Source of the DNA: an uncultured Rubrobacteraceae bacterium
GTDB lineage: Bacteria; Actinomycetota; Rubrobacteria; Rubrobacterales; Rubrobacteraceae
Direction: 5' to 3'
Assembly (NCBI GenBank): GCA_902806055.1
Contig: CADCVD010000031.1
Span: forward strand, 1-48,510
Length of the DNA: 48,510 nt
Within the stretch, counting starts at the first letter, position 1. Each line of letters starts with the position of its first letter. Under the pieces are notes generated by a model, which saw only the letters and a program-made list of their open reading frames with translations, was not told where the DNA came from and did not search any database. Positions 626-7,014 of the stretch are shown here, piece by piece. Both the position numbers and the translations under genes were made by a program.

Positions 626-1615
626 CTAATCGGGCTCGAAAACCAGCCGGTCTTCATGGCGATCGAACACGCTTCCTATCTCGTTGGACAAGCGCTTCAT
701 CCGGTCGAAGATCACTTCCCGCTCGGCTCCGGCGGCGAGTTCCGTCTGGGCATAGTGGAGCCTGACCGGGAAGAGCTCCAGGCGCCGGAGCTCGCTTTCT
801 TCCAGAGAGATCTTGAAGAGGAAAGATTGGTCGTTGCGCAGCCTCTCGTCGACCGCGTAGTCGTCTATGAAGTCACCCGTGTCGTACAGGATCGGCTTGC
901 TGCGGTAGATCTCCACTCCCTGAAAGACGTGCGCGCTGTGCCCGTAGTAGATGTCCGCTCCCCTGTCCACGACGGAGTGGGCGAACCGGCGAAAGAGGTT
1001 GGAGGGACGCTGCACCATGTTCGGGCCCCAGTGGTTGGAGAACACGACGATCTCCGCTCCTGCCTCGCGCGCGCCCGCTATCACTGCCTCCACCCGATCG
1101 AGGATCTGCGGCTCCAAGGATACCGGGAGGTAGTTCGTTCCAGGACGGTCAGGCCCGGCTGCGAAGGGCGGCTCGTTGTCCGTGAAGGCGACCAGGGCCA
1201 CCCGGCCCGCGCGGTCGGAGCCCTCCTCAAGAATAGCCGGTCGCATGGCCTCCTCCGTGTCGCGGCCGGCCCCCGCGTGTCGGATGCCAGCCGCCTCGAG
1301 GTGCTTGAGGGTATCGAGCAGGCCTCTCTCCTCAAAGTCGAGGGTGTGGTTGTTGGCCAGCGAGCAGGCGTCGATGCGGGCCGCTTTGAGAACCTCGATG
1401 GTGGAAGGGGCGGCGCGGAAGTGGAAGACCTTTGGCGTGCGCGTCCACGGCTGCTCATGATCGGTGACGGCGCACTCCAAGTTGACTATGCGCAAGTCGG
1501 CGGAAAGGAGCAGGGGGAGCACGTCGCCCCACGGCTGCTCGGGAGCGAGGTCGCGGAGCGCCTCGTTAACTCCGCGCCCGAGCATTACGTCGCCGGTCAG
1601 CGCCAGGGTGATCAC
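626..1615 (-). CDS. CapA/PgsA-family putative metal-dependent phosphoesterase-like protein
   Basis: The family is named for poly-gamma-glutamate capsule proteins and has a calcineurin-like phosphoesterase fold. Visible signatures are LTGDVMLGRGV at the N-terminus, NLECAVTD, SLANNHTLDF, FSNHWGPNM and YYGHSAHVFQG, which together match the conserved Asp/Asn/His pattern of PGA_cap proteins. I start it at the GTG at 1615 instead of the track's 1681: that GTG overlaps the stop of the upstream gene as GTGA, giving 329 residues beginning directly with the conserved strand. No signal peptide is seen, so a cytoplasmic role is likely. It is the last gene of a minus-strand operon after a dienelactone-hydrolase-like gene. 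The substrate is unknown; there are no capsule genes nearby, so capsule synthesis should not be assumed. Confidence 0.82.
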   Translation of the reverse strand: MITLALTGDVMLGRGVNEALRDLAPEQPWGDVLPLLLSADLRIVNLECAVTDHEQPWTRTPKVFHFRAAPSTIEVLKAARIDACSLANNHTLDFEERGLLDTLKHLEAAGIRHAGAGRDTEEAMRPAILEEGSDRAGRVALVAFTDNEPPFAAGPDRPGTNYLPVSLEPQILDRVEAVIAGAREAGAEIVVFSNHWGPNMVQRPSNLFRRFAHSVVDRGADIYYGHSAHVFQGVEIYRSKPILYDTGDFIDDYAVDERLRNDQSFLFKISLEESELRRLELFPVRLHYAQTELAAGAEREVIFDRMKRLSNEIGSVFDRHEDRLVFEPD

Positions 1616-2301
1616 TTGAGATCCGATTCGGTTCGACCCGGGTCGTCCTCCGGGGCGGAGCCCAGGTAGCGTGTAAACCATTCAGCGGCGAGCCGGGCGA
1701 CCTCCTGCAGAGCCCCCGGCTCCTCGAAGAGGTGCGTAGCCCCCGGCACGATCTCCAGCTCTTTCTCGGCGCGTATCTGCGTAAGCGCCTCCCGATTCAT
1801 ATCGATCACAGGGTAATCTTCTTCTCCGACGATCAGGAGCGTCGGCGCCGCGACGTGGTGCAGGGCCTCCCCCGCGAGATCAGGGCGCCCGCCACGCGAG
1901 ACAACTGCTCCTACTCTCCTCGGGCGCTCGGCCGCCGCGACTAGAGCGGCCCCGGCGCCGGTGCTGGCGCCGAAGTAGCCGACAAAAAGGTCTCGCGTGT
2001 CCGGGTTTTGCGCCAGCCAGTCGGCGGCGCCAGCGAGCCTTTCGGCGAGCAGCCCGATGTCGAACCGGAGGTGACGTGTCCGCATATCCACCTCTTCCTC
2101 TTCAGGCGTGAGGAGGTCGATGAGCAAGGTTGCCAGTCTCGCTTCGCATAAAGCTTCCGCGACGTAGCGGTTTCGGGGGCTGTGCCGGCCGCTCCCGGAG
2201 CCGTGCGCGAACAGCACGATCCCCTGGGCGTCGTTGGGGATGCACATGTTTCCTTCGAGGATTGTCAACCCCGCCGAGACTTCGACCTCGCGCTCTTGCA
2301 T
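1612..2301 (-). CDS. Dienelactone-hydrolase-like alpha/beta hydrolase
   Basis: A 229-residue alpha/beta hydrolase. The oxyanion segment FAHGSGSG, nucleophile elbow GYFGASTGAGAA (Ser), acid VGEEDYPV (Asp) and GATHLFEEPG (His) give a complete Ser-Asp-His triad. The start is the ATG at 2301, preceded by GGGGAGG at a good distance; the track's longer form adds a Ser/Ala-rich leader that overlaps the upstream gene. It follows the phosphoribosyltransferase gene by 16 bases and overlaps the next gene by 4. Phosphoribosyltransferase plus this hydrolase, adjacent or fused, is a recurring pair in actinobacteria (established knowledge recalled, not searched). The substrate is unknown; true dienelactone hydrolase activity is not implied, since that enzyme normally uses Cys. 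Confidence 0.85.
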   Translation of the reverse strand: MQEREVEVSAGLTILEGNMCIPNDAQGIVLFAHGSGSGRHSPRNRYVAEALCEARLATLLIDLLTPEEEEVDMRTRHLRFDIGLLAERLAGAADWLAQNPDTRDLFVGYFGASTGAGAALVAAAERPRRVGAVVSRGGRPDLAGEALHHVAAPTLLIVGEEDYPVIDMNREALTQIRAEKELEIVPGATHLFEEPGALQEVARLAAEWFTRYLGSAPEDDPGRTESDLK

Positions 2302-2317
2302 CGGATCATGTCCTCCC

Positions 2318-3001
2318 CTATGGGCCGCTTGCGCTGCGCTCCACCTGTTGCTCGCGCTGGGCGCGCTCGAGCAGCTCGATGACTTCCTCATCTTCCACTT
2401 GGTAAAAGTCTTGGTACCAGAGGCTGATGGCCATAAGGTTGGAGGGCCTTTCCAGGCAGATCAGCTCGTCGACCTCCGGGCGTAGCAGCTCAGCCGCTTG
2501 CGCGGCACACACGGGCACGGCCAGGATGAGGCGTCTTGGGTTTCCTTGACGTAGTGCCTCTACCGCCGCCCGGGCCGTTACGCCCGTGGCGAGTCCATCA
2601 TCCACCAGGATTGCGGTCCGCCCCCTAACCTCGGGCTCTGGGCGCCCTTCGCCGCGCAGCAGCCTGAGGCGACGTTCTATCTCCTCTGTCTCCTCTTTTG
2701 CGGTGCGCTCTATGAATTCTTCGGGAATCTCTAGGGCCTCTACAGCACGCGTATTGAGAACACGCACCCCACCCTGCGCTATCGCCCCGATGCCGAACTC
2801 CTCGTGCCCCGGCGCCCCGAGCTTGCGTGCGATAAAGACATCAAGCGGCGCTCCCAAGGAGCGTGAGACTTCATACCCTACCGGTACACCTCCTCGCGGC
2901 AGGGCGAGGATTATCAGGTCTTCGTCTCGGTACCGAGTTAGCTTCACGGCGAGCCTTCGCCCGGCGTCTTCTCGGTCTCTAAAAGAAGTCCTTGTGCTCA
3001 C
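2318..3001 (-). CDS. Phosphoribosyltransferase-domain protein
   Basis: A 227-residue type I phosphoribosyltransferase. The PRPP-binding loop is AILVDDGLATGVT, followed by AAVEALRQ. An upstream ALPRGGVPVGYEV stretch matches the family pyrophosphate loop, and FGIGAIAQGG is the flexible hood region. The start is a GTG at 3001 with AGAGAGG eight bases upstream. It heads the intact part of an operon continuing into the hydrolase and CapA-like genes, and lies 25 bases after the archease/RtcB remnant. Such stand-alone proteins are often named as predicted phosphoribosyltransferases in stress gene clusters. The base or nucleotide substrate cannot be read from the sequence. Confidence 0.88.
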   Translation of the reverse strand: MSTRTSFRDREDAGRRLAVKLTRYRDEDLIILALPRGGVPVGYEVSRSLGAPLDVFIARKLGAPGHEEFGIGAIAQGGVRVLNTRAVEALEIPEEFIERTAKEETEEIERRLRLLRGEGRPEPEVRGRTAILVDDGLATGVTARAAVEALRQGNPRRLILAVPVCAAQAAELLRPEVDELICLERPSNLMAISLWYQDFYQVEDEEVIELLERAQREQQVERSASGP

Positions 3002-3026: not shown

Positions 3027-3404
3027 TCACCCCTTTACTACGATCAGGGGTCGCAGGCGCGCCACCTTCTTCCCTATCCTAGCCCTGTCGGTGGTATCGA
3101 CGACCTCAGCGGCGTCTTTGTAGGCCTCAGGCATCTCCTCGTCTATGGTGGTCTTGTTGGCCGCGCGTATCAGGATGCCCTTATCCTCCAACTCCCGTCG
3201 CAGGTTTCGGCCCTTGGCAGCCTTCTTGGCGGCCCGGCGGCCTATCTTGCGACCCGCCCCGTGGGCGCTTGATCCGAAGGTCTCCTTCATGGCCCCCTCG
3301 GTGCCGGACAAAACGAAGGAGTAACGTCCGAAGAGGTTCTCGAGCGTCGGGGCCTCCGCCACCTCGAACCCAACGGCAGCGGTGTGGTCGAGCATCCGGA
3401 TCAT
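3027..3404 (-). pseudogene. Archease N-terminus fused in frame to RtcB C-terminus (deletion remnant)
   Basis: The start of this frame reads like the beginning of archease (MIRMLDHTAAVGFEVAE, then APTLENLF). After LFGR it turns abruptly into the C-terminal end of the RNA ligase RtcB (VLSGTEGAMKETFGSS, AHGAGR, then EEMPEAYKDAAEVV and KKVARLRPLIVVKG). Archease is normally about 140 residues and RtcB about 480; only about 25 and 100 remain. The guanylylated-His motif HGAGR survives, but the metal-binding N-terminal part of RtcB is gone, and the conserved archease HTAD is HTAA here. The product therefore cannot be a working ligase or activator. It precedes the phosphoribosyltransferase operon and may still be transcribed with it. 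The ORF continues upstream to 3509 without recognisable sequence, so the start is approximate. Confidence 0.8.
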
Positions 3405-3509
3405 CGCTTCGCGCGCAAGGTACGTTACCGGCCCTGGGTCCTCGGTTCGCCTTTTTGCTCCTCCAGCCCTCTTACCCGTTCCAAAAGGTCCGTTAACGCC
3501 CCGCCGCAC

Positions 3510-4067
3510 CTTCCTACCCCTGTTCTTCCCCTTACGCTACTCGTGGCGCCGATTATTTTGGACGCTTACTTAGAGCTTGTGCTAATAGGTGTGCAACGTA
3601 GTGCTTATGGGTGAGGCAAGTGCGCTTTAATTACTCGGAGAGCGTTAACCGTTGGGCGGCCATCTCTCTATTGGCGTAGCTTCTTAGAAGTCCTCTAAGG
3701 GAACCCCCGCACGTCTGAGACCTTCCCCGAATGTTTGTGATCAGCGGGCCGGTGTTATCCGGAACTCACACTCGTGGACAAGAACCTCCGGCGCTTGTCC
3801 GCCCCCGACGGTCAACCTCACGGTCACCAAGGCTATAGGCGAGATCCTGAAGGAGTTGGGCGGCCAAGTGCAGCGCGTGTCCGACAAGGGGATGGGGCAA
3901 GTTGGCTTCGCCGGGACCATCGCCGAGAGGCTCAAGACTCTGATCGACTCTCTCGCCAGCGAAGGAAACTCAGCCTCGGGGCGGTAGGAAAGTTCGCCGA
4001 AAGGCTCGCGGGAGCTTACGCGCTTACTCGAGAAAAGCGATGATCCTTTTGGTTCCTTCGGAGGACC
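3510..4067. other. Gap between RtcB remnant and pcm, containing an orphan start-less reading frame
   Basis: No intact gene is seen. On the plus strand an open frame ends at TAG 3985-3987 and reads protein-like over its last 60 codons (TVNLTVTKAIGEILKELGG, then GFAGTIAERLKTLIDSL). It has no ATG, GTG or TTG at a sensible place, so the ORF track misses it. It could be the 3' end of a gene whose 5' part was lost, in keeping with the neighbouring archease/RtcB deletion. I do not recognise the family. The track ORFs 3774..4043 and 3741..4679 are shadows. Confidence 0.4.
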
Positions 4068-4070
4068 GTG

Positions 4071-4076
4071 CATAAT
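4071..4076 (+). promoter_or_regulatory. Candidate -10 box for a leaderless pcm transcript
   Basis: CATAAT lies six bases before the ATG at 4083, the spacing expected if transcription starts at the A of the start codon. There is no ribosome site at a suitable distance from this ATG (GGAGG at 4060-4064 is 18 bases away). No convincing -35 is seen. Confidence 0.4.
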
Positions 4077-4082
4077 TGTGCC

Positions 4083-4721
4083 ATGACGAGTAGCCAGGAA
4101 GACCTCGTCCGGGCAATCGCCGCCCAGGGCGTGCGCGATCCCCGCCTCCTCCGGGCCCTGCTCCAGGTACCGAGGGCCGGGTTCGTCCCGCCCGACCTTA
4201 CCGAGGCGGCCTACCTGGACCGGCCGCTGCCGATACCCCACGATCAGGTGACTACCCAGCCCTCCCTCTCGGCGAAGATGATCGAGGCTTTGGGTCTGGA
4301 GGGGACCGAGCGCGTCCTGGAGGTCGGCACGGGATACGGTTTCCAGACGGCACTGCTTTGCCGCTTGTCCGGTTTCGTGCGCAGCGTGGAGCGCTTTGCG
4401 GACGTCGGCGAAACCGCTAGAGATAACCTGGCCCGTCAAGGTGTCGCAAACGTAGAGGTCGTCGTAGGCGACGGGACCGGAGGGCTCCCCGAGTACGCTC
4501 CCTACGATGCGATCCTCGTCTCGGCGGCGTTCCCTTCCGTCCCGCCGCCCCTGGTGGACCAGCTCGCCTTTAAGGGAAGGCTCGTCCAGCCGATGGGCCC
4601 GGGCGGCCGAGAGGACGTGGTCCTGTTCGAGAAGGGGCTCCAGGGTTTCGAGCGCTGTCGCACCGTCACCGGGGCCCACTTCGTTAGGCTATACGGCACG
4701 CACGCATTCCCAACAGGATGA
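4083..4721 (+). CDS. pcm: Protein-L-isoaspartate O-methyltransferase
   Basis: A 212-residue SAM-dependent methyltransferase that initiates repair of isoaspartyl residues in aged proteins. Visible are the PCMT N-terminal helix region (VRDPRLLRALLQVPRAGFV), PLPIPHDQVTTQPSLSAKM, the SAM motif I VLEVGTGYGFQTALL, the acidic end of motif II (SVERFADVGETARDNL), VVVGDGTGGLPEYAPYDAI and the late motif GRLVQPMGP. The length fits the family. I choose ATG 4083 over the track's GTG 4068 because the GTG is only three bases from GGAGG, whereas the ATG has a -10 at leaderless distance; the difference is five residues. It is divergent from the archease/RtcB remnant operon. Recalled pcm, rtcB and archease neighbourhoods in other genomes suggest a shared stress-repair context. 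Confidence 0.9.
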   Translation: MTSSQEDLVRAIAAQGVRDPRLLRALLQVPRAGFVPPDLTEAAYLDRPLPIPHDQVTTQPSLSAKMIEALGLEGTERVLEVGTGYGFQTALLCRLSGFVRSVERFADVGETARDNLARQGVANVEVVVGDGTGGLPEYAPYDAILVSAAFPSVPPPLVDQLAFKGRLVQPMGPGGREDVVLFEKGLQGFERCRTVTGAHFVRLYGTHAFPTG

Positions 4722-4915
4722 GCCTTCCTGGACTTCCGGTGGAGCGGGGAACCTTCCCCAGCTCCTATGTTGCCGAGATCGCCTTCGTCGAACCTTTAGA
4801 GGTGGAGCTGTGCTTCGACCACGAGAAGATTATCTCGGACTACGCGAAAGCGTGGATGAGAGTTTTGTGTAGACTGGGAGCGAACCTCCTTAAACGTGTG
4901 CCCATTTTAGCTTGA
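4718..4915 (+). CDS. Small ORF overlapping the pcm stop, doubtful
   Basis: A 65-codon frame starts with ATGA across the pcm stop, the classic coupling arrangement. The middle (SSYVAEIAFVEPLEVELCF) looks protein-like, but I recognise no family and the end runs into low-information sequence. It may be a remnant of a longer gene or chance. From here to 5047 nothing else is supported. Confidence 0.25.
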   Translation: MSLPGLPVERGTFPSSYVAEIAFVEPLEVELCFDHEKIISDYAKAWMRVLCRLGANLLKRVPILA

Positions 4916-5047
4916 TGCTTTCGTCGGACAACAGGGCGCTGAACCCGAACCCTGAGCGTTTTTGGGTTTCAAAAGCGTGTGTTCGCGCGCCGGCACCAGG
5001 AGCAGGTCTTGGTGCTGAAGAGGACCACCTTCGCCATCCGTCTCTCC

Positions 5048-5746
5048 TTACTTCATGTTGGCTTTGAGCGCCTCCGCGAGATGCTCGACCGGATCGAGCT
5101 TCTTCGGGTTCTCGAGGTCCATGTACCGGACGAACTCTTCCTCGTCTTCGAACAGCATCTTGGGGTTGCTCTTCTTCTCCTCGCCTAGTGTGGAGGAGGT
5201 GCGTCCTTGATAGTCGTGGCCGGGATAGACCTCGAGGCCGTCGGGGAGGCTTCTGTAGGTGTGGTAGAGCGTATGGTATTGCCGGGTCGCGTTGCCGTTG
5301 AGCAGGTCGGTGCGGCCGCAGGAGCCGATAAGGAGAGCGTCGGCCGTGAGGATCCTGCTCGGGAGCATGACGCTGACGAGGTCTTTGGCGTGGCCTGGGG
5401 TGTGCAGCAGCTTTACGGGGAGGTCGCCGAGATGCAGCATGTCGCCGTCCTCGACCCGTACATCCACGGTCCCGCAGGGGGCCTCCCTGTGCATGACTAG
5501 TTTCGCGACGGTCCTGGACTTCAGGATGTGCGCCCCGGATACGTGGTCAGCGTGGGTGTGGGTGTCGATGATGTAAGCTGGGCGTAGACCGTGCTCGAAC
5601 ACGTAGTCGACCATCGGCTCGACCATCTCCAGCTCCGGGTCTACCAGGGCTGTGAGCCTGGTCACCGGATCGGCGACAATGTAGCCTAGGCATCCCCGCG
5701 GCACTCGGAACTGCTTGAAGAGGTAATCTGGGTGCGCTCTCTCCAT
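5048..5746 (-). CDS. ETHE1-like MBL-fold hydrolase / putative persulfide dioxygenase
   Basis: A 232-residue metallo-beta-lactamase-fold protein. The metal motif is THTHADHVSGA, followed by LHTPGHAKDLVSVML, GSCGRTDLLNG and VYPGHDYQGRT. The GRTD and PGHDY motifs with the short helical C-terminus resemble ETHE1-type mononuclear-iron persulfide dioxygenases, which oxidise glutathione or low-molecular-weight persulfide to sulfite, more than classic glyoxalase II. The start is ATG 5746 after GAGGAGG at an ideal distance. It appears to be transcribed alone; there is no rhodanese or sulfide:quinone reductase beside it. Glyoxalase II activity is the main alternative. Confidence 0.8.
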   Translation of the reverse strand: MERAHPDYLFKQFRVPRGCLGYIVADPVTRLTALVDPELEMVEPMVDYVFEHGLRPAYIIDTHTHADHVSGAHILKSRTVAKLVMHREAPCGTVDVRVEDGDMLHLGDLPVKLLHTPGHAKDLVSVMLPSRILTADALLIGSCGRTDLLNGNATRQYHTLYHTYRSLPDGLEVYPGHDYQGRTSSTLGEEKKSNPKMLFEDEEEFVRYMDLENPKKLDPVEHLAEALKANMK

Positions 5747-6003: not shown

Positions 6004-7014
6004 CTACCGGAGGCTCTCCCAGAAGGGGGCCAGCGCCTTCCGAGATGCCTCGACGGGCGTTACGTCTCCAGAGTATCGACAGGTCCCGAACGGCTCCTCG
6101 ACCCCCTTTATGGTGGCGGCGACGCTCCCGGTGAGCGCGTTGAGGTTGTAGCCTCCCTCCAGTACGAGCGCGAGCGGAGCGGACCCGACCTCGCGGGCCA
6201 GAGACGCCAGCCCCGCCGCGAAGCGCCCGAAGGAGGCGGACTCGAGCCGCATCCCTCCCAGCGGGTCTGCAACATGCGCGTCGTAACCGGCGGAGACTAC
6301 GAGAAGGTCGGGACGGAACTCGCTGAGTACGGGAAGGAGGAGGCCCGCGAAGACCTCGGCGTAGAGATCCTCACGGGAGCGCGCAGGCAGGGGAACGTTT
6401 ACCGTGAAGCCCTTCGCGCTGCCCTCTCCGACCTCCCGGGCGGCGCCGGTCCCGGGGTAGAAGGGGCTCTGGTGGACCGAGAGGTAGAGCGCCTCGTCGT
6501 TGGCATAGAAGACGTCTTGCGTGCCGTTACCGTGGTGAACGTCCCAGTCGAGGATGGCCACCCTTTCGGCGCCTTGAGCTAGGGCGTACGCGGCGGCTAT
6601 GGCGGCGTTGTTCAGCAGGCAGAAGCCCATCCCGTAGGCGCGCCCGGAGTGGTGACCCGGAGGACGGGCGATGGCGAAGGCAGCAGCCCCGGAGAGGGCG
6701 CTCTCAACCGCCCCTACGGCGGCTCCGGCCGCGAGCTTGGCTGCCTCCAGGGAGTCCGGCCCGAGGGCCGTGTCGAAATCCACGTAGCCTCCGCCCGCGG
6801 CGGAGAGCTTCTCAAGGCCCTCTAGGTACTCAGGGGAGTGAACCGCCTCAAGGGCGGATCGTGGAGCAACCCGGCAGGGACGGTATTCCACCCGTGCGCC
6901 CGCTCTCCCGGCCTCTTCGGCCCCGGCAAGGGCCGCTCTGAACCTCTCCGGGGCCTCCACGCCCGCCATGTGGTTGACGTGGCGCTCTGAGGCGGGATCG
7001 CTGTAGACATGCAA
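6004..7014 (-). CDS. Histone-deacetylase / acetoin-utilisation (AcuC)-like amidohydrolase
   Basis: A 336-residue zinc deacetylase fold. Visible motifs in order are VYSDPASERHV, the paired active-site His in ARPPGHHSGRAYGMGF, the zinc site ILDWDVHHGNGTQDVF, SVHQSPFYPGTG, the second zinc Asp in VVSAGYDAHVADPLGGM, and the transition-state Tyr in VLEGGYNLNAL. All catalytic residues are present. Bacterial members deacetylate small molecules (polyamines) or acetyl-lysine on proteins such as acetyl-CoA synthetase; which applies here is unknown. The start is TTG 7014, chosen because AGGAG sits eight bases upstream, a stop lies two codons before it, and the next ATG would drop the conserved first strand. 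It is 36 bases after adk. Confidence 0.9.
   Translation of the reverse strand: MHVYSDPASERHVNHMAGVEAPERFRAALAGAEEAGRAGARVEYRPCRVAPRSALEAVHSPEYLEGLEKLSAAGGGYVDFDTALGPDSLEAAKLAAGAAVGAVESALSGAAAFAIARPPGHHSGRAYGMGFCLLNNAAIAAAYALAQGAERVAILDWDVHHGNGTQDVFYANDEALYLSVHQSPFYPGTGAAREVGEGSAKGFTVNVPLPARSREDLYAEVFAGLLLPVLSEFRPDLLVVSAGYDAHVADPLGGMRLESASFGRFAAGLASLAREVGSAPLALVLEGGYNLNALTGSVAATIKGVEEPFGTCRYSGDVTPVEASRKALAPFWESLR

Follow-up and report, generated by a model that had tools for sequence, protein, structure and literature searches.

Archease and the RNA ligase RtcB are encoded side by side in a tRNA-splicing and RNA-repair operon, and exchange of a single aspartate in the Pyrococcus horikoshii archease (D12A) cripples RtcB activation, more severely than any other archease change tested (PMC3973293). 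In human RTCB, the metal ligands are D119, C122, H227, H259 and H353 (PMC10944509). Here, we analysed a stretch of 48,510 nucleotides from an uncultured Rubrobacteraceae bacterium (draft genome G000), which we refer to as the window. One of its loci is like the archease-rtcB operon (PMC3973293) in that an archease 5' end and an rtcB 3' end stand in operon order, at the place that the operon occupies in relatives; unlike the operon, it lacks about 1.5 kb that make up most of the two genes, has an alanine in place of the metal-binding aspartate of archease, and can encode no ligase. The locus is also like the gene-fusion pseudogenes that arise from single deletions within operons, in which the head of one gene runs into the tail of its neighbour, the frame being kept by chance. 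As in such pseudogenes, the downstream genes are intact here, and we noted no difference of importance from this class. We consider it very likely that the chimeric gene is a pseudogene formed by a recent deletion-fusion, and that its genus is losing archease-RtcB ligation.

Results

An earlier note on this DNA described an open reading frame in which the start of archease is fused in frame to the C-terminus of RtcB. The frame is indeed present, with 160 codons and a GTG start, at 3509-3027 on the minus strand of the window, and its two halves match the two proteins separately. Residues 61-160 (3027..3329, minus strand, stop codon included) match positions 328-426 of the 426 positions of the Pfam RtcB family (PF01139; E-value 1.7e-30), and the score of 107 bits against a curated cut-off of 27 makes this tail a family sequence match over positions 328-426 only. 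NCBIfam RtcB models also match the tail, as do the C-terminal ends of the solved RtcB chains 2epg (residues 385-487; best structure match, E-value 6e-37), 1uc2 and human RTCB. The closest RtcB tail is that of G017, with 86% identity.

The archease piece, counted from the likely start Met36, consists of about 25 residues, MIRMLDHTAAVGFEVAEAPTLENLF (M36-F60; 3330..3404, minus strand), and runs in frame into the RtcB tail. In a direct tblastn search against intact relatives, the stretch from residue ~29 or 36 to residue 60 aligned with the first ~25 residues of archease at ~65-79% identity in nearly all of those examined, the matching archease gene lying on the same strand and in the same order, just upstream of rtcB. 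The N-terminal part thus has archease similarity, a lack of which the earlier note had considered fatal to its reading. Pfam and NCBIfam searches returned no family match for this part because only about 25 archease residues are left, and the archease model (PF01951) had no match in the genome even at an E-value of 10. As archease of the relatives begins with MIR/VIR.LDHTAD, the true start of the chimera is, judged from these alignments, most likely Met36 (window position 3404), in which case the fusion product would have ~125 residues. The preceding residues 1-35, with the GTG start (3405..3509, minus strand), have no consistent match to anything, and we assume that this region is probably an untranslated leader.

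The retained RtcB tail corresponds to human RTCB residues ~391-507. It still contains the SSAHGAGR guanylylation motif with the guanylylated histidine (~residues 80-87 of the chimera) and the KG C-terminus. All five metal ligands lie upstream of the kept part, and the full catalytic domain with its Mn ligands is absent. The C-terminal aspartate and carboxylate metal site of archease falls within the deleted segment. The N-terminal metal aspartate that characterises the archease family is missing too, since the HTAD motif reads HTAA in the chimera (Ala45, codon 3375-3377), as the earlier note had pointed out, whereas HTAD is present in every relative examined. Matched by the motif, this is the same change as P. 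horikoshii D12A. In the RtcB tail, residue 144 is an arginine here versus a glycine in all 19 homologues compared. Alterations at two otherwise invariant positions, one in each piece, suggest that relaxation of constraint has begun. The product, if made, would be expected neither to ligate RNA nor to activate RtcB, because none of the RtcB metal ligands and hardly any of archease would be left in it.

The undeleted pair is found in the intact relatives, and in two complete genomes, G016 and G027, the gene order is HDAC - archease - rtcB - phosphoribosyltransferase - alpha/beta hydrolase - CapA. In the window, the genes for the phosphoribosyltransferase (2318..3001; Pfam Pribosyltran, 8.2e-19), which adjoins rtcB in G016 and G027, the alpha/beta hydrolase (1612..2391; identified by homology and by synteny with the same genomes) and the CapA-like protein at the end of the ancestral order (626..1681; Pfam PGA_cap, 2e-75, and synteny) follow the remnant, all on the minus strand, with a gap of 25 nt between the remnant and the first of them. 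The earlier statement that this downstream operon is intact holds by ORF length and homology. The histone-deacetylase-like gene (HDAC; 6004..7014, minus strand; Pfam Hist_deacetyl, 7.9e-85), which directly precedes archease in G016 and G027, lies upstream beyond genes for MBL-fold and PCMT proteins. This agreement of the flanks with G016 and G027 marks the site as the ancestral one, at which one deletion is the simplest account of the chimera. The two ancestral genes are separate and collinear in G016, G017 and others, and the interval between the two pieces is missing here. The junction F60|G61 (3329..3330, minus strand) was placed by DNA alignment and by the coordinates in G017 and G016, in which the distance from the end of the archease piece to the start of the RtcB piece is 1503 bp and 1483 bp, respectively. 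The single deletion within the operon proposed earlier is supported, and its size, given as roughly 1.4 kb, has to be corrected to ~1.48-1.50 kb as measured on these two genomes. No long flanking repeats were seen at the junction ends in the sequences of the relatives; the parental sequence is missing, and the junction would permit a microhomology of a few bases at most.

The PCMT and MBL-fold genes (window 4068-5746) are absent between HDAC and archease in G016 and G027; hence, the operon was interrupted or rearranged upstream as well. The ~550 bases that separate the remnant from the PCMT gene (3510-4060) contain no recognisable gene; a frame at 3810-3986 on the plus strand, TVTKAIGEILKELGGQVQRVSDKGMGQVGFAGTIAERLKTLIDSLASEG, resembles a gene scrap and has no Pfam match. 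G000 also carries a second phosphoribosyltransferase paralogue (C53, 31659-32324; L130, L177) with 62% identity to the one in the window, and two such paralogues are present in G003 and G004 as well.

Across the 10 genus genomes, several of which are incomplete, no intact archease or archease-partnered rtcB was found; the two best, G002 (94%, 2 contigs) and G007 (95%), also lack the pair. The loss of RNA 3'-phosphate ligation that the earlier note had suggested for this lineage can therefore be extended to the genus. In the sister genome G003, archease has a frame break, and rtcB lacks ~55 codons, changes frame and contains a TAG stop; a scrap of the RtcB tail lies on another contig just before a phosphoribosyltransferase gene. 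Decay reaches past rtcB there, since the operon's alpha/beta hydrolase gene (L172, C26, 895-1483) is likewise disrupted by an in-frame stop and frame shifts. G004 has an empty site, in which HDAC ends 26 bp before the phosphoribosyltransferase gene with neither archease nor rtcB between them. We considered a lesion inherited by G000 and G003 from a common ancestor and rejected it: the lesions differ, so at least the visible ones are independent. In an RpoB tree, a clade of 17 genomes (support 93/98) excludes the intact species G016, G027, G010, G019 and G018; G017 is its one intact member, and G000 and G003 carry remnants. Because the intact species lie outside this clade and G017 alone is intact inside it, several independent losses of the pair are likely, their exact count being limited by moderate branch supports within the genus.

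Horizontal gain from a G017-like source was also considered, as the RtcB tail is closest to that of G017, and a one-codon length in archease is common to G000 and G017 and missing from G003. However, the locus stands in the ancestral gene order, which would make vertical descent the simpler account.

Discussion

We propose that an ancestral archease-rtcB pair sat between the HDAC-like and the phosphoribosyltransferase genes. One deletion of ~1.5 kb would have taken out everything from archease codon ~26 to rtcB codon ~384, the frame being kept by chance; it probably arose by recombination between sequences with no more than a few bases in common. The case of G000 belongs to a broader disappearance of the pair within one large Rubrobacter-family clade.

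The alternative that survives best, and one that we regard as improbable, is an assembly artefact, in which an intact archease-rtcB pair exists in the organism and 1.5 kb of it dropped out during assembly. It draws on the state of G000, a draft of 192 contigs with 91.8% completeness and 5.1% contamination. However, no internal RtcB or archease fragment occurs elsewhere in the assembly, the relatives' sequences show no long repeat where the junction ends lie, and the changes on either side of the junction (HTAD to HTAA and Gly144Arg) are of the kind expected in a decaying gene. The genus is otherwise devoid of intact copies, so a loss is expected in G000. The earlier note had advised looking for a second intact rtcB; a family-model search of this 91.8%-complete draft found neither a second RtcB nor a second archease, an absence that is not absolute because the genome is a draft. 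One candidate, a 367-aa ORF on contig C106 beside a biotin-carboxylase-like gene, was rejected as its RtcB match of 25.5 bits lies below the cut-off. Weak matches of the same length in many genomes of the family suggest that ORFs of this type represent a conserved gene other than RtcB.

Even less probable, in our view, is that the fusion encodes a functional small protein or serves as a translated leader, acting for example by translational coupling or anti-polarity on the downstream phosphoribosyltransferase gene. The open frame and the 25-nt gap to the next gene fit this idea, as does a low dN/dS on the terminal branch. For the RtcB tail, 5 nonsynonymous and 14 synonymous changes fell on the G000 branch in the 75 of 100 codons that could be resolved, giving a dN/dS of 0.10 (bootstrap 0.02-0.26) for codons that are skewed to conserved ones, and the G017 branch was similar. 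This implies that most of the G000 branch was under RtcB-like constraint. Together, the open frame and the low ratio are what speaks against a pseudogene. The ratio fits either a recent deletion or ongoing constraint; on these counts the deletion is probably recent and, less likely, the chimera itself is constrained. A retained function has to contend with the two altered, otherwise invariant residues and with the metal sites missing from the remaining RtcB tail. In addition, the in-frame outcome has a chance of one in three in any case, and a consensus scan, which is weak evidence, found no promoter-like site upstream. The fusion was found in no relative: the short ORF, whose conservation in relatives the earlier note had named as telling against decay, is absent from 40 genomes of the family and from a scan of genome contigs. 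We likewise regard it as improbable that selection retains the ~125-residue product or its translation, be it for translational coupling to the phosphoribosyltransferase gene or for a residual nucleotide- or RNA-binding function of the RtcB tail. A functional fusion common to relatives was rejected, since no relative in these searches carries the chimera.

To return to the deletion-fusion pseudogene, one and the same site is intact, broken, fused or empty depending on the related species, and the archease-RtcB pair is lost as a unit, which fits with archease and rtcB forming one functional module. The pattern suggests that archease-partnered RtcB ligation is dispensable for the genus. The locus is a tidy but ordinary case of operon decay, with no new system or mechanism.

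A distant second RtcB-family gene is present in place of the archease-partnered one in G004 (L029), at L030, L031 and L032, and in G033 and G036, which together cover genera g7 and g12 besides G004. These genes reach ~220-290 bits with the Pfam RtcB model, the profile match being split or gapped in some, and their closest NCBIfam models are PRK09588/release_rtcB, with scores below the cut-off.
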